From Planctomycetota bacterium (GTDB taxonomy: Bacteria > Planctomycetota > Planctomycetia > Pirellulales > UBA1268), in the NCBI GenBank assembly GCA_018970785.1, contig JAGWVR010000003.1, positions 1 to 64,000 on the forward strand: a DNA stretch of 64,000 nt. The letters are read 5' to 3'. This document shows positions 20 to 52,000 of the stretch, one piece after another. A program made the position numbers and the translations under genes. The stretch's first letter is position 1. Every line of letters starts with the position of its first letter. The notes beneath the pieces were generated by a model, which ran no database searches, was not told where the DNA came from, and saw nothing but the letters and a program-made list of their open reading frames with translations.

Positions 20-1096
20 ATGAACGCTCTGCGTTTCACGCGCTGTGCCGCCGCGCTCGTGCTCGCTCTGACTGTGACGGCGGCCCATGCCGTCACGATC
101 GACATGGTGTCGGTGGGGAACGCCGGCAACGCCAACGACGCGACCGGCTACGGCGGCGTGGCGTACGACTACCAGATCGCGAAATACGATGTGACGATCG
201 GGCAGTACACGGCGTTTTTGAATGCCGTCGCCGCGACCGATACCTACTCGCTCTACAACGCGAGTATGGCGACCGACCTCAACGTGGCAGGCATTTCACG
301 AACGGGTGTTTCAGGCTCGTACACCTACAGCGTGATAAACAACGGCGGCGACAGTGCCAACCGCCCGATCACGTACGTGAGTTGGTTTGATTCAGCCCGC
401 TTTGCGAACTGGATGGCGAACGGCCAGCCGACGGGAGCGCAGAACAGCACGACGACAGAGAATGGTGCCTACAACGTGAACGGGGCGACGACGGGGAATG
501 CTCCGGCGAAGAACGCCACGAACCCCAACACGAGCGCCGCCCCGACGTTTTACATCCCGACAGAGAACGAGTGGTACAAGGCGGCGTATTACTCGCCGGC
601 GCTCAACTCGGGCACGGGCGGCTACTACACGTATGCCACGCGGAGCAACACGGCCCCGGGTAACGTGGTCGGCAGCGGTGTGAATCAGGCGAACTACTAC
701 AACGGTGTCTATTCAGTGACGCAGTCGTCGAGTTACTCGGGGAGCCAGAACTACCTGACCGACGTGGGTACGTTCACGAACAGTGCGAGTTTCTACGGCA
801 CGTTCGACCAGAGCGGGAATGTGTATCAGTGGAACGATCTGGATGGCGCAGCCGGCTCGTCTCGTGGGTTCCGCGGCGGCGCCTGGGGCAGCGTCGCGTT
901 CAACTTGTCGTCCTCCTTCAGGTTCGGGATGCCGGTCGCCCCGTCGGACGAGAGCGGCGGCATCGGTTTTCGTCTCGCAAGTCCGGTCAGCGGCCCCTCC
1001 GGCGTTCCGGAGATCGACGCAGCGGGAGCGCGCCTGGCGATGGTGCTGATCGTGTTCGGACTGGCGCTCCTGGAGCAACGCCGGCAGGGCCGCTGA
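20..1096 (+). CDS. FGE/C-type-lectin-fold secreted protein with VPEID-type sorting tail; candidate DGR target (variable) protein
   Basis: A 358-residue exported protein. Residues 1-24 form a signal peptide ending near AHA. The body has the SUMF1/FGE-sulfatase fold: IAKYDVTIGQYTAFLNAV, PITYVSWFDSARFANWMA, FYIPTENEWYKAAYY, DQSGNVYQWND, FRGGAW and GIGFRLA. The two catalytic cysteines of true formylglycine-generating enzymes are absent, so enzymatic activity is unlikely. The fold more probably serves ligand binding, as in DGR variable proteins. The C-terminus VPEIDAAGARLAMVLIVFGLALLEQRRQGR is a short motif, one hydrophobic helix and a basic tail, which is the architecture of PEP-CTERM-class exosortase substrates. 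The ATG lies downstream of TGGAG. An avd-like gene follows about 180 bp downstream. That it is a DGR target is inferred from fold, variable-region codon pattern and the Avd neighbour; the template repeat is not in the window. Confidence 0.85.
   Translation: MNALRFTRCAAALVLALTVTAAHAVTIDMVSVGNAGNANDATGYGGVAYDYQIAKYDVTIGQYTAFLNAVAATDTYSLYNASMATDLNVAGISRTGVSGSYTYSVINNGGDSANRPITYVSWFDSARFANWMANGQPTGAQNSTTTENGAYNVNGATTGNAPAKNATNPNTSAAPTFYIPTENEWYKAAYYSPALNSGTGGYYTYATRSNTAPGNVVGSGVNQANYYNGVYSVTQSSSYSGSQNYLTDVGTFTNSASFYGTFDQSGNVYQWNDLDGAAGSSRGFRGGAWGSVAFNLSSSFRFGMPVAPSDESGGIGFRLASPVSGPSGVPEIDAAGARLAMVLIVFGLALLEQRRQGR
863..979 (+). other. Candidate DGR variable region (VR) at the 3' end of the lectin-fold gene
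   Basis: This is the last FGE-fold segment, from RGFRGGAW to GIGFRLA. The invariant edges are conserved family sequence. Between them, many codons are NNC with diverse first two bases: GGC AGC GTC at 887-895, TTC at 899, 917 and 923, GTC GCC at 935-940, GAC at 947, AGC GGC GGC at 953-961. All of these are reachable from AAC by adenine substitution, the signature of adenine-specific mutagenic retrohoming. Adenine is rare here (about nine in 887-964), as expected for a diversified copy of an A-rich template. Exact boundaries cannot be set without the template repeat. Confidence 0.6.
1004..1093 (+). other. VPEID/PEP-CTERM-type C-terminal sorting signal
   Basis: The last 30 residues are VPEID, then a hydrophobic stretch (LAMVLIVFGLALL), then EQRRQGR. 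Such tripartite tails are processed by exosortases at the membrane. A matching exosortase is encoded at about 50.3-51.6 kb. The tail lies immediately after the variable region, so diversification would not damage sorting. Confidence 0.75.
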
Positions 1097-1171: not shown

Positions 1172-1230
1172 CCCGGCAGGAGGCCTGTTTTCCTGTCGGG
1201 GCGTCGCCGTCGCTCTGAGCGGCGGCGATG
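1172..1230 (+). other. Two consecutive GC-rich hairpins between the DGR target and avd
   Basis: The first is CCCCGGCAGGA / TCCTGTCGGGG, an 11-bp stem with one G-T wobble. The second is GCCGTCGCTC / GAGCGGCGGC, 10 bp with one wobble and a very short loop. A T-rich stretch (GTTATTTTTTGGGG) follows. In known DGRs a hairpin or cruciform just downstream of the VR helps retrohoming. Here the position, about 75-130 bp after the target stop codon, would allow that or a terminator role. Function is inference. Confidence 0.4.
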
Positions 1231-1274
1231 CTTCGCGTTATTTTTTGGGGTCTGCCAAGGTGGCAGGGTGGTTC

Positions 1275-2210
1275 ATGGCGCGAGCGGTGAAGCAGCCGAT
1301 CGTGCTCATGAAGTGGTACCGGGTGGTGTCGTGGATGCTCGACCGCGTGGACCACTTTCCGAAGAACCAGCGATTCGTTTTCGGGCAGCGACTGGCCGAG
1401 CGGTCGATCCATGTGCTGGAGTTGCTCGTGGAGGCGACGTGGTCGCAGGACAAGACGGCGATCTTGGCGCAGGCCAACCGCGAGATGGAAGTACTGCGGT
1501 GGCTCGTGCGGCTAGCCCACGACCGCAAGATTCTCACGGCCAAACAGTACGAGGCGGCGGCCGAGGGTATCTACGAGTGCGGCCGGATGGTGGGCGGTTG
1601 GCAAAAAGACTCCCAGCGGCGGGCGGCCTCGTCACCGCCACCGCGCAGCACCCTTGTCGGGACAGGGGTTCAATTTGTCCGGACCGTCGGCGGACGAAAT
1701 CGGACGAAAGGCGAAATCCGTCGCCGGTCGTCCTCGCTGGCGAAGACGTGGCGGCATTTCGTCCATTTGTCCGGATTCGTCCAGATCGACCCGTGGACGA
1801 ACGATCCCCTTACCGCGGCTTGGGTTGCGGCATTTTTGCCGTTTCGTCCGCCGCCCCCTCGGGGAACAACTCCGCGACCGTCGGCAGCACGTCTACGTCG
1901 TCCCTGGCCTTCCCGGTCGGCTTCCATGCCCGAGGCGGGCGACCGCGACCGCAGTTGGAGCGCTCGCGGGAAGCCCGCGGACGACGGCGCCGGCCGCCGG
2001 AGGTGGCCGGCGCGGCTGGGGGAAACCCGCGGTGTTTCCCGCGGGAGCGTGACTGGCCCCGCAGCATGGACGGCGCCGCCCGCCGACGCCCAAACCTCCT
2101 CGTCGACCCGAACCACCGCGCAGAAGCCGCGAGTCTCCCTCCGAGCGGCCGAGCGCCTCCCCCGCGGCAAGGAGAAAGAACCTTGCGTCCTGGAAAGGCT
2201 GGGCAGGTGA
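1275..2210 (+). CDS. avd: Avd-like DGR accessory protein (four-helix bundle), with abnormal 200-residue read-through tail
   Basis: Residues 1-115 match the bAvd four-helix-bundle family that binds the DGR reverse transcriptase and template RNA: KWYRVVSWMLDRVDHFPKNQRF, FGQRLAERSIHVLELLVEA, ANREMEVLRWLVRLAHD and ECGRMVGGWQK. The ATG at 1275 follows AAGGTGGCAGGGTGG. Family members usually stop near residue 115-125. Here the frame stays open to 2210 through Arg/Ser/Pro-rich, low-complexity sequence that also runs across an intergenic repeat copy (1991-2049). The tail is therefore probably not natural protein. Either the frame is open because of high GC, or a deletion has joined avd to unrelated DNA and removed a template repeat and reverse transcriptase that normally follow. 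The Avd identity is fairly secure; the real 3' end is not. Confidence 0.75.
   Translation: MARAVKQPIVLMKWYRVVSWMLDRVDHFPKNQRFVFGQRLAERSIHVLELLVEATWSQDKTAILAQANREMEVLRWLVRLAHDRKILTAKQYEAAAEGIYECGRMVGGWQKDSQRRAASSPPPRSTLVGTGVQFVRTVGGRNRTKGEIRRRSSSLAKTWRHFVHLSGFVQIDPWTNDPLTAAWVAAFLPFRPPPPRGTTPRPSAARLRRPWPSRSASMPEAGDRDRSWSARGKPADDGAGRRRWPARLGETRGVSRGSVTGPAAWTAPPADAQTSSSTRTTAQKPRVSLRAAERLPRGKEKEPCVLERLGR
1660..1830 (+). repeat. Inverted TTTGTCC/GGACAAA-like repeat cluster downstream of the Avd domain
   Basis: Several related short words occur on both strands: ATTTGTCCGGA near 1674, GGACGAAATCGGACGAAAGGCGAAAT near 1693-1715, and CATTTCGTCCATTTGTCCGGATTCGTCC near 1755-1782. The second block is roughly the reverse complement of the third, so the two could pair across about 40 bp. 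No protein homology was seen here. It may be regulatory RNA, a recombination scar or degenerate template sequence; none of these is established. Confidence 0.35.
1991..2049 (+). repeat. Dispersed GC-rich intergenic repeat, copy D (partial)
   Basis: CGGCCGCCGGAGGTGGCCGG followed by GGGGGAAACCCGCGGTGTTTCCCGCGG aligns with the left part of copy A at 9688. It keeps the inner dyad GGGAAAC...GTTTCCC. The right part, with the GGACAAAGGCC dyad, is missing. It is the most diverged and shortest of the four copies. Confidence 0.5.
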
Positions 2211-2296: not shown

Positions 2297-3235
2297 ATGC
2301 CGCACACCACTACCGCCGCCGCCAGTGTGCCGCTCGTCGCCGTCTGGTTGTCACTGTCGATCGCCACGGCTTGCGCCGCGGCCGGTACGGCTTGGCTCGC
2401 GGTGTCGCGAAGGACACCGTTTGCCTGGTGGGGGAACTTCGTCCGCTGGTCGCTGGTGCTCGTCACGGCCCTGGCCGTCGCCGACCTCGCGCTGCGCTCC
2501 TCCGAGCCGGCCGAGACCGAGGGGGCGTGGGTCCTCGTGCGCCTCGCGGCCGGTCTGGCGGGAATCCTCCTGGCGACCGCGATCCTCGCCGCGCCGCCGA
2601 CACGTGGCGACCGATGGGGCTGGGCGTGGACGGGGGGTATCGTGGCGGCGCTGGCCCTGGCGTGCGTACGGCTCCAGGCGATCGCGGCTCCGCAGCGACT
2701 CGACTTCGACCCCTTCCTCGCGGTTCCCGTCGAGGAGGAACCGGACGAAACCGGCGCCCACGCGATCACCGACCGCGGTACGGCAATCCACCTCCGCCGC
2801 TACGTCACCCCCGAGCACGAGCCGCTCGTGCCGGACGGGTTCGACGGGCGCGTGATCGTCGCCGACTCGTCACGGTCTCCCTCCAACTGCCACGGATGGG
2901 TGTTCACCGGGGGACGGTTCCAGGTCGGGAGCGCCGACGTCGAGCAAATTCTTTCCGACAACGGCTACGTCGCGGTCGCCACACCGCGCCCCAACGACCT
3001 GATCGTGTACCGCGACGGCAAAGGCGCGATCGTCCACACCGGCCTGGTCAAGGCGACCGGGCCCGACGGTTTCGTCCTCGTCGAGAGCAAATGGGGGCCG
3101 CTCGACATCTACTGGCACACCCCCCACGACCAGGTCTACTCGCAGCGCTACGAATACTGGCGCAGCCCGCGCGCGGGCCACGAGCTCGGGATCGTCGCGC
3201 CCTCGGAAGCACCGCCCGGCACAGTGGGGCGTTGA
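2297..3235 (+). CDS. Membrane protein with C-terminal NlpC/P60-like domain
   Basis: About 312 residues. The N-terminal half has four hydrophobic segments (VPLVAVWLSLSIATACAAAG, WSLVLVTALAVADLAL, LAGILLATAILAA, GGIVAALALACV). The C-terminal half contains SNCHGWVFTGG, then RPNDLIVYRD and IVHTGLVK. The Cys-then-His spacing resembles NlpC/P60 or CHAP papain-like hydrolases, which would suggest cell-wall or peptide cleavage. The match is by pattern only. A GTG at 2261 in the same frame is an alternative start; neither start has a clear ribosome-binding site. It converges with crcB, only 12 bp away. The function is not established. Confidence 0.6.
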   Translation: MPHTTTAAASVPLVAVWLSLSIATACAAAGTAWLAVSRRTPFAWWGNFVRWSLVLVTALAVADLALRSSEPAETEGAWVLVRLAAGLAGILLATAILAAPPTRGDRWGWAWTGGIVAALALACVRLQAIAAPQRLDFDPFLAVPVEEEPDETGAHAITDRGTAIHLRRYVTPEHEPLVPDGFDGRVIVADSSRSPSNCHGWVFTGGRFQVGSADVEQILSDNGYVAVATPRPNDLIVYRDGKGAIVHTGLVKATGPDGFVLVESKWGPLDIYWHTPHDQVYSQRYEYWRSPRAGHELGIVAPSEAPPGTVGR

Positions 3236-3247
3236 CGACCGGAGTGC

Positions 3248-3625
3248 TCAGCGCGTCAGACGGAGCCCGACCCACACCGCCAGCAGGCCGAGCGAGTTGG
3301 ACGCCAGGGCATAGGCCAGCGCTGCTCCGGGGCGGCCGGTTTCCAGGAGGTCCACCGCCTGGAAGGCATAGCTCGAGAAGGTCGTGAACCCGCCGAGCAG
3401 CCCGGCCAGCAGCACCGCCTCCAACCCCGGCGGCAGCTCGACCCGCCCCCGCGACAGGCCGGCGACGGCGCCGAATGCCGCGGCTCCGACGAGATTGACG
3501 GCGAGCGTGCCCCACGGAAAGCGCGTGCCGAGCGAGCGGGCGACCAGCTCGGTGAACCCGGCGCGGGCGAGCGTGCCGAAGGCACCGGCCGCTGCCAGCG
3601 CGATCGAGGTCTGCAGCAGGTTCAT
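3248..3625 (-). CDS. crcB: CrcB/FluC fluoride ion channel
   Basis: A 125-residue protein of normal family length. It has four hydrophobic segments and the family motifs GTLARAGFTEL, FPWGTLAVNLVGAA and GLLGGFTTFSSYAFQ. FluC proteins are dual-topology dimers that export fluoride. The start MNLLQTSIALAAAGAFG is chosen over the track's longer frame because the preceding 68 residues are low-complexity and unlike the family. No fluoride riboswitch was recognised upstream. It is divergent from the decarboxylase gene at 3786. Confidence 0.93.
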   Translation of the reverse strand: MNLLQTSIALAAAGAFGTLARAGFTELVARSLGTRFPWGTLAVNLVGAAAFGAVAGLSRGRVELPPGLEAVLLAGLLGGFTTFSSYAFQAVDLLETGRPGAALAYALASNSLGLLAVWVGLRLTR

Positions 3626-3785
3626 CGCGGATCTCCGGCAACGCGCGTGACAGGCCGGGGTCGCAGCGAGCCGGACCTCCGCCCCCCGGCTCCGGCCGGC
3701 ACGGCAGCGATATACTGCCGCGACGCCGCCGGCCGGGAAAGCCGAAACCGGAGGCGTCCCCTGCCGAGGAGCCGACACCACGACG

Positions 3786-47046: not shown

Positions 47047-47832
47047 TCACCCTCCGCCGCCAGCCGACGTGGCGACGCTCCCGCGCACTACACCGGCACC
47101 CGCCGAGTGAACCACCGATCCGCTTGCCGTGGACTCCGCGGTTGCATCAGCGGGCTTCGTGTCGAGACGCTCCGCGACCGCACGGTCGAAGGCTGGCAGC
47201 ATCACCGCGAGAAACTCCCGGCAGATTCCGCTCGACTGCGGCGCGCTGACCGCGGTCTGATCGATGATCGCGTACAGCTTGTAGACCGCAGCCGTGCCGG
47301 CAAGCTCGATCCGCGCGATCTGCGGAGCGAGCCATTCGCCACGCACTCCGTACGTCCAATACACCCGGATGGTCTGCCCGGTCTTCCGAAACGTGCCCAC
47401 GAACGCCTCCGCACGCCGGCCGTCTTCGAGGGTGATCGTCTCGCGGTGCTCCGTCTCCGCAATCTCGAACCCCGCGGCTGGGTAGCATCGATCGGGGGTA
47501 TGCCCCGAGGCATCGTGGGGCGTGGCGCAAATCACGAAGGCCGCGACTTTCGCGCCGGTGTCTTTGTTTTGATACAGCCGCGAAACGTGTCCGACGGCAC
47601 CGGCGCGCTCGAGTTGCTCCTGACTTGACTCGACATCGTCGACGTACTTCCACGGTCCAATCTCGGCTGGGAAGGCCTCCTCGAGGATCATCGCGCTGAC
47701 CTTCAGCTCACCGGCGATATCACGATCCGACCATCGCTCGGTCCAAACGCCCTGGACCGCGGTGACGACGGCCACGAATGCCGCGGCGATGACCAACGGG
47801 ATCACGGCTCTTGCCCGTTCATTGAACATCAC
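47047..47832 (-). CDS. epsI: EpsI-family exosortase-associated protein
   Basis: 261 residues. There is one N-terminal membrane helix (AVIPLVIAAAFVAVVTAVQGVW). The EpsI domain has FPAEIGPWKYVDDVESSQEQLERAGAVGHVSRLYQNKDTGAKVAAFVICATPHDASGHTPDRCYPAAGFEI and then IRVYWTYGVRGEWLAPQIARIELAGTAAVYKLYAII. EpsI domains are found fused to, or next to, exosortases. Their role is not proved; they may assist in cleaving or linking sorted proteins. It lies between gmd and the Wzc-like kinase. Confidence 0.88.
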   Translation of the reverse strand: MMFNERARAVIPLVIAAAFVAVVTAVQGVWTERWSDRDIAGELKVSAMILEEAFPAEIGPWKYVDDVESSQEQLERAGAVGHVSRLYQNKDTGAKVAAFVICATPHDASGHTPDRCYPAAGFEIAETEHRETITLEDGRRAEAFVGTFRKTGQTIRVYWTYGVRGEWLAPQIARIELAGTAAVYKLYAIIDQTAVSAPQSSGICREFLAVMLPAFDRAVAERLDTKPADATAESTASGSVVHSAGAGVVRGSVATSAGGGG

Positions 47833-47885: not shown

Positions 47886-50117
47886 TCAACGCAGGGCCTG
47901 GGTGTAGTTCCGCCTACTTTTTCCGAGGGCAACGCCGTGCATGACGCAACCGAGCACCGTGATCCCTACCGAACGGAGCCGACCGATCGAAGCGGTGAGG
48001 TTCGGCACGCTCGTCACGTCGCGCATCACCGAAACGACAGCGACATCGGCCTGCTGACCGAGAAGCAGCGCGTCTGCCAATTCGATACACGGCCCCGAGT
48101 CGATGACCACGTGATCGAATGCATCGCGGTATTTCCGAAGGGTCGTTTTCAATTGCGGTCTGGACAAAGCGAGGATCGATTCGGTGTCACACCCGCCTGC
48201 CGTCACGGTGAACAACCCGTCGATCTCGGTAGGCTGGATCACCTCATCGGTGCCACACTCGCCCCGCAGAACCTCCGAGAAGCCGGTCCCGAGATCGATC
48301 TGGACGATCGAGTGTACCGATGGATGCCGAAGGTCACCGTCGATCAGCAACGTCCGCTTTCCCGACCGGGCGATGCTCGCCGCCAACTGGGCGGCAAGCG
48401 TGGTCTTCCCCTCGTGCTCACCGGCGCTCGTGACCAGGATCATCTTGGCCGCGTCGCGTCCCGCCTGCATCGTCAGCGTACGGATCGTGTCGATCGCCTC
48501 CATGAAGCGGCCGACATCGGCCGGTGCACGCTTCGATCCGCGCCGACGCAAACGCGGCAGGGTGCCGAGCAACCGCACCCCGACTCGATTCGGGATCTCT
48601 TCCGGGTAGCTCAGCCGATCGCGAAGCAGCTCCGTGCCGATCGTGAGGCCGACACCGGTGGCAAATGCGAACATGCCCGACAAGCCGGCCAGGACCATAC
48701 GGGAAACGTCGCTCGACGACTGCGGCACCGACGCCGGCTCGAGGAGGCGGACACGGGAGGGCATGTTGATGTCGACGCTCGAGGCCTCGAGTTGCTTTCC
48801 CAGGAGACCGGTTACCTGCTCCAGCTGGTCGATCTCACCGCGCCGCAGCTCCAGATCGGAATTGGCACGGCCGATCAGCAGCAGTTCCTCGGAGAGCTTC
48901 TGGTACTCTTTCCTGCTCGCCTCGAGGTTCTTCTCGATCACCGCACGTCGAACCCTGAGCACGGCGGGGCTGACGGCGGCCTGACCTTGGTTTCCGATGT
49001 TGCTCCGCAACTGTCTCGCGACCTGGGGCCGCAACTCGGCTCGTACTTCATTGAGCTGCCGCACCGCCGACTGGTACTGATCTCGGAGCCGCCGGACGGA
49101 CGGTTCACTCGCGCCACGGGCACTTCTTGCCAATTGCTCCGAGAGGGCCTGCCCGAGCGACCGGATCCGCTCCTTGACCTCCGCCACGGCTGGATCGCGA
49201 TCGATCATCGCCTCGACGGCGTCGTCGCCACTGTCTTCGGCGGAATCTTTCCCCGAGTCGAGCCCGTCGGCAATCGCCAACTCGGTGTCGATCCGCGCCA
49301 AATCGGTCTCGGCAGTCTCGATATCGGACCGAATACCCGCCAGCTGATCCATCATCAGGGCACGGTTGGTCGTGACTTCAGAACTCGAGAGCGAATTGGT
49401 GGTCCTGGCGATCTCGTAGAATTTCTCCTTGCGGCTGCGCAACTCCGACTGGCTCTCCTTGAATTTCTTCTCCAATTGATCGCGCTTCGCCAACCGGTCG
49501 GCGCGGTCCTTGTTGACGATGTCATCAAGGTAGCTTTCCGTGACGGCATTCAGGATCTTCGCCGTGTCTTCAGCGATCGGCCCACGCAAGCGGAGCGTCA
49601 CGACCTCCGACTCCTGGGGTGCCGACATGACGATGTTCTTGGCCAGCCAGTCTGACGGATCATCCTGCTCCTTGATCGTGGGCAGGTCGGCAACTCCGGG
49701 GCGCCGCAGTGCGGAATTCAAGACGAACGGGCTCTTGAGCAACTGCATTTGGGTCTTGCGGTACTGATCCTGCACACCCGCGACCGGGCCGAGCATGCCC
49801 TGCTCCGAGCGCATCTGAAGCCAGACGACCGCTTCGTAGCCCTTCGGAAGCAGGAACCACGCCGGCACCGCCACCAGCGGCGCCAGCAACGAGCCGACAA
49901 GAAGGGCCGGCAACCAACGTCGCCGCACTGCATGCAGCAACCTCCGGGTGTCGAACCCCGAAGGACCATCAACGCTCGGGGGCACCGTGACCGTTTGGTA
50001 GTCGGGGAACGGCGCGAGGGGCATGTCGCCCCTGATCGTCAAGCCCCCGAGCGATGGAGACGGGACAGCCCCTGCCGGAGTCGCTACGAACCCGCCGTCG
50101 GCCTCGGACGCGGTCAT
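47886..50117 (-). CDS. Wzc-like polysaccharide co-polymerase / BY-kinase
   Basis: 743 residues. The chain-length determinant domain begins TRRLLHAVRRRWLPALLVGSLLAPLVAVPAWFLLPKGYEA. A long coiled-coil periplasmic stretch follows (KKFKESQSELRSRKEKFYE and LEASRKEYQKLSEELLLIGRANSDLELRRGEIDQLEQ), then a second membrane helix. The P-loop kinase has ILVTSAGEHEGKTTLAAQLAASIARSGKRTLLIDGDLRHPSVH, and DHVVIDSGPCIELADALLLGQQADVAVVSV. The C-terminus has only one Tyr (RRNYTQALR), not the Tyr cluster of classic Wzc. The start at 50117 follows GAGGAGTGGGCGGGC. Confidence 0.9.
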   Translation of the reverse strand: MTASEADGGFVATPAGAVPSPSLGGLTIRGDMPLAPFPDYQTVTVPPSVDGPSGFDTRRLLHAVRRRWLPALLVGSLLAPLVAVPAWFLLPKGYEAVVWLQMRSEQGMLGPVAGVQDQYRKTQMQLLKSPFVLNSALRRPGVADLPTIKEQDDPSDWLAKNIVMSAPQESEVVTLRLRGPIAEDTAKILNAVTESYLDDIVNKDRADRLAKRDQLEKKFKESQSELRSRKEKFYEIARTTNSLSSSEVTTNRALMMDQLAGIRSDIETAETDLARIDTELAIADGLDSGKDSAEDSGDDAVEAMIDRDPAVAEVKERIRSLGQALSEQLARSARGASEPSVRRLRDQYQSAVRQLNEVRAELRPQVARQLRSNIGNQGQAAVSPAVLRVRRAVIEKNLEASRKEYQKLSEELLLIGRANSDLELRRGEIDQLEQVTGLLGKQLEASSVDINMPSRVRLLEPASVPQSSSDVSRMVLAGLSGMFAFATGVGLTIGTELLRDRLSYPEEIPNRVGVRLLGTLPRLRRRGSKRAPADVGRFMEAIDTIRTLTMQAGRDAAKMILVTSAGEHEGKTTLAAQLAASIARSGKRTLLIDGDLRHPSVHSIVQIDLGTGFSEVLRGECGTDEVIQPTEIDGLFTVTAGGCDTESILALSRPQLKTTLRKYRDAFDHVVIDSGPCIELADALLLGQQADVAVVSVMRDVTSVPNLTASIGRLRSVGITVLGCVMHGVALGKSRRNYTQALR

Positions 50118-50323
50118 GCCCGCCCACTCCTCTCGATGAAACCCGCTGCTGCTCGAAACGATTCGAGCAGACGGCTCGACCAACCGCCCCCCGGCATCAC
50201 CCACGCCGGTTCAAAAGCGGGACGCGATTTCGGCACTCGCAGCGACGACGCCGGAAAATCGGATCGTTGCAGGGACGACCATTTCCGCGAAACACCTCGA
50301 CCGTACAGCGTCTGAGTATACCG

Positions 50324-51574
50324 TCAGATTCCGGGCAGCAAGCCGTCTCGGCGCCCACGGACGACGTCGTTGGATTCACGTTTTCTCGATGTCTTCGGGG
50401 CAATTTCCGGCGACACCGCCCCATCTCCCCGACGGAGACGCTCCGCCGTCGTGCCGCGGGGGGGAAACGGATTGGTCTCCGTGTCGACTGCAAGCCGTGC
50501 CGTTGGCTGCGAAACCGGAAGCAACCCATCCGACGAAGCACGCCGACCGGCGGTGGCCGCCGACGGCTGCAGGCCGATCGCGATCATCTCGGCCTCATCC
50601 TCCACGACCATCAGTTTCGCGAGCAGATACTGCTCTCCATACAGCATCGCCAAGGCCATCGGCATCATGAACCAGCCGGCGAGATCGTGGAAAACCATCT
50701 CGGCGATTTCCGACGTCGCGATCTGGTACAGCATTCCGGTGACGGTGATGCGGATGGAGTTGACGATCAGGGCGATGGGGATGGCACTGGCGATGATGAC
50801 CCCGTTCTCCCATGCGGGCCGGTCGCCGAGCATGACCAATGCCACCGACAAGGCGATGAAGATCGTGAGCATTCGCAGCCCACTGCAGGCATCGACGACG
50901 CCGAGGTGCATCTCACCGATGACGATCTGGTTACCTTCCTGGAACGCCTCCAGGCCGAACGTCTGCAACGCGAACGTGCTGACCGTCGTGGCCAGACCCT
51001 GCAATGGCCCGAGAAGGTAGCGCGTCGCTTCGTCGGGCAACGGAAACATGAAGATCAGGAACGCGATCGGCGCCCAGCCCCACCGCAAACCGCTCCAACC
51101 GCACGACAGGAGGAACGCACCTGCGACGGCGGGCACGAAGGTGTACATGTCGATCGTGATGATGCGGAAGGAGGCAGCGCCGAGCCGAATGCCGAACGCC
51201 AACGCGAGCAGAGCCAAGCCCGCCAATCGCGCCGAGTCGGTCACCGGTTCGAGCCGATCGCGCCACCACAACAACATGCCGACGGTGAACAGTGGCACGA
51301 GCCAGCCGTGTGAGTACTGGGCGTTGCTCCAACTGGCATGGGCGTTGAGCAGGCCGGGCCAGTAGGCGTAGATCATCAGTCCGACGAACACGAGCATGGT
51401 CACCAGCGGACCGCGCTGGGCCGGTTCGCCAAGATCGCGGCGCAGATCGCGAAACCGTCGCAACCAGCCTTCGAGCAGCCCTTCGTCCCCGGCCTCGGGG
51501 CGCCCGATCGAGTTGCCGGCCGATTCTTCCCGGGACATCACGGCCAGTCCGCCTGCAGAAGCCGGCGGTTCCAT
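50324..51574 (-). CDS. Exosortase with C-terminal cytoplasmic extension
   Basis: About 416 residues; starts at 51646 or 51538 are also possible. At least eight hydrophobic helices (for example GPLVTMLVFVGLMIYAYWPGLL and LAGLALLALAFGIRLGAA). The exosortase triad is visible: catalytic Cys in GVVDACSGLRMLTIFIA, Arg in IVNSIRITVTGML, and His in MVFHDLAGWFMMPMA. It cleaves C-terminal PEP-CTERM-class tails and attaches the protein to a glycan or lipid. A charged tail of about 90 residues after the last helix (VVEDEAEMIAIGLQPSAATAGRRASSDGL) is poorly conserved. EpsI, kinase and fucose genes follow on the same strand. Confidence 0.9.
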   Translation of the reverse strand: MEPPASAGGLAVMSREESAGNSIGRPEAGDEGLLEGWLRRFRDLRRDLGEPAQRGPLVTMLVFVGLMIYAYWPGLLNAHASWSNAQYSHGWLVPLFTVGMLLWWRDRLEPVTDSARLAGLALLALAFGIRLGAASFRIITIDMYTFVPAVAGAFLLSCGWSGLRWGWAPIAFLIFMFPLPDEATRYLLGPLQGLATTVSTFALQTFGLEAFQEGNQIVIGEMHLGVVDACSGLRMLTIFIALSVALVMLGDRPAWENGVIIASAIPIALIVNSIRITVTGMLYQIATSEIAEMVFHDLAGWFMMPMALAMLYGEQYLLAKLMVVEDEAEMIAIGLQPSAATAGRRASSDGLLPVSQPTARLAVDTETNPFPPRGTTAERLRRGDGAVSPEIAPKTSRKRESNDVVRGRRDGLLPGI

Positions 51575-52000
51575 CGAAGCGCGCTCTCTACCATGACCGA
51601 CGGTATTGTCCGTTCGCTCGTCGGCTTTGGGCGTCAGCGGCAACATTGAGCAACCCGAGCGTGAAAACCCCTGTCGCCTGCCTCAACGTCATCGGGTGCG
51701 AAACACGCCATGCCGACCGGCCAGTGGGCAGCTTGGCCAGGTCGCGTCAACCGTGTGCCGGAACCGCGCTTCCCTCGCGATGGCAAACGACCTACCAGTC
51801 TACACGGTGACGGAAGGGGGGAAAATGGTTTCGGTGATTCCGCCCCGGGGCTGCCGTCGGCTGGCGGGACACAGACGGCGGCACAACGCTCCGCCGATCC
51901 GTACGGATTTTGCCGGAATTTCTGGTACGCTCCGCGGCCGACGCGGCTGTTGGACCGCCCACCCCTCCTCGATCCTGATGGTTGGAGCCACGGAAACGAC
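51575..52000 (+). other. Divergent intergenic region, exosortase/UPF0104
   Basis: 426 bp between oppositely oriented genes. It should hold both promoters. No hexamer pair with good spacing was recognised. The minus-strand ORFs of the track in this stretch lack family features. Confidence 0.5.

Follow-up and report, generated by a model that had tools for sequence, protein, structure and literature searches.

A diversity-generating retroelement-type variable protein with a VPEID exosortase sorting tail in a planctomycete genome

The window studied here covers the initial 64 kb of contig C69, which measures 92.9 kb and belongs to a 3.38 Mb planctomycete assembly of 143 contigs that is 69% complete. 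Close to its left end, positions 20..1096 of the forward strand encode a variable protein composed of a signal peptide, a body of the FGE/C-type-lectin type, a variable region (VR) and a VPEID tail. The signal peptide, judged by eye from the sequence, occupies about residues 1-24. The product matched PF03781 (FGE-sulfatase) with 67 bits (cut-off 23.3), and its predicted model (pLDDT 77, pTM 0.80) found its best structural matches in CarF, TvpA, PvdO and FGE (Z 16-19). Treponema TvpA (2y3c) was matched with a Z of 18.0, while TaqVP (Z 9.5) and Mtd were weaker matches. The FGE-sulfatase fold was thus recognised both by sequence and by structure, and an enzyme activity is only putative. The VR (854..984, forward strand) was delimited by alignment to the template repeat (TR) of a related genome, G058, and by a codon-position signature over the family. 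Comparison with the same TR revealed a conserved VR 3' end, ATCGGTTTTCGTCTCGCAAGT (962..982, forward strand), which occupies the IMH (initiation of mutagenic homing) position. The preliminary description of this DNA had placed a VPEID-hydrophobic-basic tail directly after the variable region, and it is found exactly there, immediately C-terminal of the VR: nucleotides 1004-1093 of the forward strand read VPEIDAAGARLAMVLIVFGLALLEQRRQGR and are followed by the stop codon TGA (1094-1096).

Downstream of this gene lies avd (accessory variability determinant; 1275..1652, forward strand), identified by NF033474 (101 bits, cut-off 80) and also matched by PF22296. Behind it comes a segment (1652..2210, forward strand) that has no homology to RT or TR. 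A scan downstream of stop codons also found a strong hairpin followed by a T run between the target gene and avd (1197..1235, forward strand). G058 and G021 have a similar hairpin in which the CTG loop is kept but the stem letters differ. The window hairpin may act as a terminator or in DGR targeting. About 50 kb away, on the reverse strand, the window encodes an EpsH-type exosortase (50324..51646; PF09721 195 bits, TIGR02602 137 bits with a cut-off of 106), a Wzc-like chain-length determinant/tyrosine autokinase (47886..50204; TIGR01007 110 bits, cut-off 108) and an EpsI-like exosortase-associated protein (47047..47832) that lies above the cut-off of PF11984 and below the NCBIfam EpsI cut-offs. 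Two GDP-mannose-dehydratase/epimerase genes are also present, and the gene content reported earlier for the window therefore holds.

The TR used for comparison came from G058 (Planctomycetaceae bacterium C1_MAG_00073, JAIXPT010000183.1; 77% complete), a member of another genus of the same family, and not from the window genome itself. At the VR 3' end, 962..982 equals the G058 TR save for the last base, which is C in the TR. Over the alignment, the window VR mismatched 19 of 30 template adenines against 8 of 93 other bases (Fisher 5e-9). The VR of G058 differed from its own TR at 13 of 32 adenines and at 1 of 94 other bases. In the 55 family VRs that carry tails, mismatch averaged 0.57 at adenines and 0.15 at the remaining bases, while the 160 bases upstream of the same VRs gave 0.26 and 0.28, respectively. 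The codon pattern was equally specific. At template AAY codons, positions 1, 2 and 3 were changed in 68%, 59% and 18% of cases in the family VRs and in 25%, 24% and 33% in the flank; the third position was the most constant within the VRs, and the flank showed the reverse. Because the adenine-biased mismatches and this codon-position pattern are absent from the flank, the sequence evidence shows that the window VR is the product of a diversity-generating retroelement (DGR) and not of ordinary divergence. The region had been called hypervariable on first inspection, and these mismatches now assign its variability to a DGR.

The intact element in G058 has the order target, Avd, RT, TR, and its RT carries the motif IGNLTSQ. 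The window Avd is 95% identical to that of G058, with a dN of 0.015 and a dS of 0.53, values which imply that Avd stayed functional through most of the time since the two separated. The sequence ceases to be homologous to G058 at about 1651, close to where avd ends; the original stop of avd has been lost, the open frame continues to 2210, and the segment 1652..2210 stands where G058 has RT and TR. Searches with the G058 RT and TR (tblastn and blastn) found no homologue of either in the window, a profile search of the 69%-complete assembly returned no RVT_1 match and hence no DGR-type RT, and the TR probe matched only four VRs and no TR in the assembly. In the family tally, the genome holds at least five VR copies of the window type.

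Similar decay was observed in other members of the family. TR/VR-like DNA was found in 35 of 72 family genomes; among those with tail-bearing VR genes a cognate RT was detected only in G058, and the other RT matches belonged to different DGRs or apparently to other RT types. The 3' end of the RT and the TR remain in G023, and Avd is reduced to about 22 residues in G044 and G054. Since the cognate RT was confined to G058, most of the tail-bearing VR repertoires would be former DGR products, and the repertoire of the window genome is probably another. The window copy itself is most likely the product of past diversification whose local element has decayed, because RT and TR beside the gene are gone while Avd remains.

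Other DGR-related loci were noted in the family. A relative of the same genus carries a different DGR RT together with a diverged avd that has one TGA in the matched stretch (L061, G015 contig C72), and no targets of this RT were found. Elsewhere in the family, G038 (L155, contig C343) has yet another DGR RT, the third, whose TR is of the common RGGSWNNTARNCRSANRNRNNPSNRNNNLGFR type. In G032 (94% complete, no RT match), two loci (L148 and L145, on contigs C14 and C4) contain long multidomain open reading frames of up to 1951 aa in which several VR-like FGE units stand in series and which have no sorting tail.

The tail was assigned to the VPEID-CTERM class by a 32-column profile (A2), by its co-occurrence with exosortase E/protease (XrtE) and by the helix of the predicted model. 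The window protein has the features of a substrate of this class, namely a signal peptide and a C-terminal motif, helix and basic end. P, E and D are invariant in the motif, and the window tail, with PEIDA where PEIDP is usual, is one of the less typical members of the class. In the predicted model an isolated helix (334-357) is preceded by a low-confidence hinge (327-333) at the VPEID motif, which is what a separable tail would predict. The window protein gave no match to PF07589 or TIGR02595; it has PEI instead of PEP and is therefore not a canonical PEP-CTERM protein. The G058 DGR target does pass the PF07589 cut-off for PEP-CTERM. The census of tail-bearing proteins that the preliminary description had suggested gave 29-30 strong matches in 3.38 Mb, which places the tail far above chance. 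About ten of these are FGE/VR paralogs, and about two thirds (~20) are unrelated proteins with neither the FGE domain nor a VR. The genome also contains 15 canonical PEP-CTERM tails above the Pfam cut-off. On another contig of the same genome (L013:3310-6168, G000 contig C36), a single open frame of 952 aa holds two copies of the FGE/VR type with a complete VPEID tail and no stop between them; it encodes a tandem protein or has lost a stop.

Two exosortases were found in the genome, the EpsH-type enzyme of the window and an exosortase E/protease on contig C82 (L024, about 2380-3777, reverse strand, outside the window). The latter joins an exosortase to a CAAX-type protease in one protein and scored 186 bits (cut-off 150) against TIGR04162, 'exosortase E/protease, VPEID-CTERM system'; the genome thus possesses an exosortase of the motif class to which its tails belong. 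XrtE and VPEID tails also co-occurred across the family. Of the 72 genomes, 19 had both XrtE and VPEID tails, 1 had XrtE alone, 5 had tails with no XrtE detected and 47 had neither (p 7e-12). The tails of the VR proteins themselves followed the same rule: XrtE was present in 13 of 14 genomes whose VR proteins end in VPEID and in 0 of 12 whose VR proteins end only in VPEPS (p 3e-6). Outside the window, 68 family VR ORFs were tallied, leaving out G054 (VPEPS tail) and a few partial matches; the tail was complete in 55, degraded in 3 and absent from 10, with 7 of these 10 belonging to G032. A VPEID-tail protein also adjoins the intact G058 DGR (L171:1297, G058 contig C58), and no XrtE was found in that 77%-complete genome; transfer or mis-binning is possible.

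The preliminary description had proposed that the variable protein is anchored through the exosortase encoded about 50 kb away. The coupling of a DGR-diversified protein to an exosortase-type tail is borne out and is seen repeatedly in the family and also in other phyla, but the enzyme named is probably the wrong partner, because XrtE exceeds its cut-off and co-occurs with VPEID tails. Neither of the observations that the preliminary description would have counted as a refutation was made: the tail is found on about 20 non-VR proteins of the genome, and the genome encodes an exosortase of the corresponding motif class. The family description and the co-occurrence both suggest that the partner of the VPEID tail is probably the exosortase E/protease on C82, and the 15 canonical PEP-CTERM tails are the more likely substrates of the EpsH-type exosortase in the window.

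The joining of the two systems reaches beyond this family. When DGR RTs were used to scan 84,980 named genomes, 80 loci were obtained, and a TR/VR-like pair was recognised in 59 of them. Seventeen RTs from Planctomycetota, Verrucomicrobiota and two other bacteria, that of G058 included, formed one clade with support 100/100. Among its 14 assessable targets, 11 had intact PEP-CTERM tails directly behind the VR, in 2 (L186 and L187) a tail could be recognised downstream of a defect in the frame or a stop, which makes 13 of 14, and the L173 target had none. In the isolate Rubritalea profundi, a member of the clade, VR and TR showed 21 differences, all at template adenines, and the PEP-CTERM tail was intact. 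No PEP-CTERM tail was seen behind the VR at the remaining scanned loci outside the clade. A single origin of the PEP tail within the RT clade may be considered, but the tree needed 6 changes, partly since targets beyond a contig end count as unlabelled. With 13 of 14 targets tailed, the joining of a DGR to exosortase sorting belongs to the whole DGR lineage and not just to the window genome; DGR-diversified proteins of this planctomycete and verrucomicrobial lineage end, as a rule, in exosortase sorting tails. The L187 target (L187:7100-7400), from an Opitutus sp. MAG, looks otherwise intact, but its tail is truncated by a stop that falls exactly within the PEP motif (P*PST) behind the VR.

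Heads and tails also have separate histories. On a tree of the protein bodies, built without VR and tail, the tail type required 8 changes against 9.0 with shuffled labels; tail type does not track body phylogeny. Over 721 nt the body of the window gene shares 84% identity with a G040 gene that has a VPEPS tail; over 111 nt the window tail shares 100% identity with a G013 gene at the same place, which has no body match to the window gene. The G040-like body and the G013-like tail join at the VR, and the window gene looks chimeric. Such a junction suggests recombination at the conserved VR/IMH. Tentatively, and with somewhat more doubt than confidence, we propose that VR/IMH DNA serves as a crossover point at which diversified heads that move between genera are joined to the exosortase tail of the host locus. 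If this is true, hypermutation and sorting-signal matching would be modules of a single surface-receptor system that evolve separately.

Several other explanations were weighed. Ordinary divergence among FGE-domain paralogs could account for a variable segment in a genome in whose assembly no RT was found, and more distant paralogs without a clear VR, compared with the G058 TR, do show a weak preference for mismatches at adenines (p 0.0009 to 0.01). This source was ruled out by the adenine-specific mismatches (p 5e-9 in the window VR; 0.57 against 0.15 in the family VRs and 0.26 against 0.28 in the flank) and by the codon-position pattern with its constant third positions, and Avd adjoins the target gene; we give it next to no credence. 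A DGR origin of the VR being preferred, the element might still be active in the species, with RT and TR lying in the missing 31% of the assembly and acting in trans. The replacement of the RT beside avd, the lost avd stop and the decayed elements in other family members speak against such activity, as does G014, a genome of the same genus that is 92% complete and likewise has VRs and no RT. Nevertheless, strong purifying selection acts on Avd (dN/dS about 0.03), and the genome, 69% complete, retains at least five VR copies of the window type, so that we regard continued activity in trans as unlikely, yet worth serious consideration, and prefer a relic of past diversification at this locus.

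As for the tail, the EpsH-type exosortase of the window is the strongest exosortase match of the genome, shares its contig with the tail gene and is accompanied by EpsI and polysaccharide genes, all of which would suit it as the processing enzyme. It is disfavoured by the TIGR04162 match of XrtE above the VPEID-system cut-off, by the 15 PEP-CTERM tails that are available to it and by the way VPEID tails track XrtE across the family, and the 50 kb of separation gives no operon link; we consider this assignment improbable and keep XrtE as the candidate partner. It is less probable still, indeed highly doubtful, that the tail is a permanent C-terminal membrane anchor upon which no exosortase acts. 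A single predicted helix with a basic end would suffice for anchoring, but anchoring would leave unexplained why P, E and D are invariant, why the tail class tracks the exosortase of the host and why tails were repeatedly exchanged between bodies.

The explanation that we favour, and hold to be probable as a whole, is therefore a DGR-made receptor sorted by exosortase E/protease, with a relic element at the locus. According to this model, which draws on anatomy and co-occurrence, the 20..1096 product would be exported through its signal peptide and adopt the fold of an FGE/C-type-lectin-type receptor, and mutagenic retrohoming would have randomised its binding face. The responsible DGR would have been laid out as target, Avd, RT and TR, as it still is in G058. 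The VPEID motif, helix and basic end would keep the protein in the membrane until exosortase E/protease cuts it, and the cut protein would be handed to the surface or the polysaccharide coat, with the VR now near the new C-terminus. The targets of this DGR lineage would as a rule be exosortase substrates, each with a tail that suits the exosortase of its host.

The protein resembles the targets of known systems and departs from each of them. As in Treponema TvpA, Legionella LdtA and Thermus TaqVP, an FGE/C-type-lectin-type fold carries an adenine-directed VR at its C-terminal end; Avd is present here and RT with TR in relatives, although RT and TR are absent at the window locus itself. The DGR targets of Legionella and Treponema are lipoproteins with an N-terminal anchor, whereas the window protein has a C-terminal exosortase tail behind its VR. 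PMC8144416 cites surface display of the Legionella and Treponema targets. The PEP-CTERM/exosortase system (models PF07589 and TIGR02595; defined in PMC1569441) shares with the present case a signal peptide and a C-terminal motif, helix and basic end on many unrelated proteins, plus an exosortase, but the window protein has VPEID instead of PEP and matches no PEP-CTERM model. No DGR target among PEP-CTERM substrates was reported in the literature searched. There is also a likeness to the exosortase E/protease, VPEID-CTERM system (TIGR04162), with VPEID tails and an exosortase-CAAX-protease fusion above the curated cut-off. That system has been described mainly in Alphaproteobacteria; here it would serve many proteins, DGR-made ones included. 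The two systems had been presented earlier as usually described separately, and this agrees with the open-access papers searched, in none of which 'diversity-generating retroelement' stood together with 'PEP-CTERM' or 'exosortase'. 'Retroelement' with 'PEP-CTERM' returned unrelated papers only, and VPEID-CTERM appeared by name in no open-access paper searched. We see in the window a variant of the known surface-displayed DGR proteins with a different kind of putative anchoring signal, a novelty that is provisional because the search was limited to open-access papers.

To our knowledge, the function of exosortase substrates is mostly unknown, and we know of no established display route for the DGR targets of most environmental bacteria. 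Where the targets of a DGR lineage are regularly exosortase substrates, each of the two systems acquires a role in the other that can be put to the test. Moreover, VPEID and VPEPS tails have been exchanged repeatedly, in line with the exosortase of the host, and these exchanges form a natural experiment on which motif is read by which enzyme. Variable receptors may be a reason for the sorting pathway in Planctomycetota and Verrucomicrobiota, and exosortase sorting may be the route by which such receptors are shown on the cell surface in these phyla.
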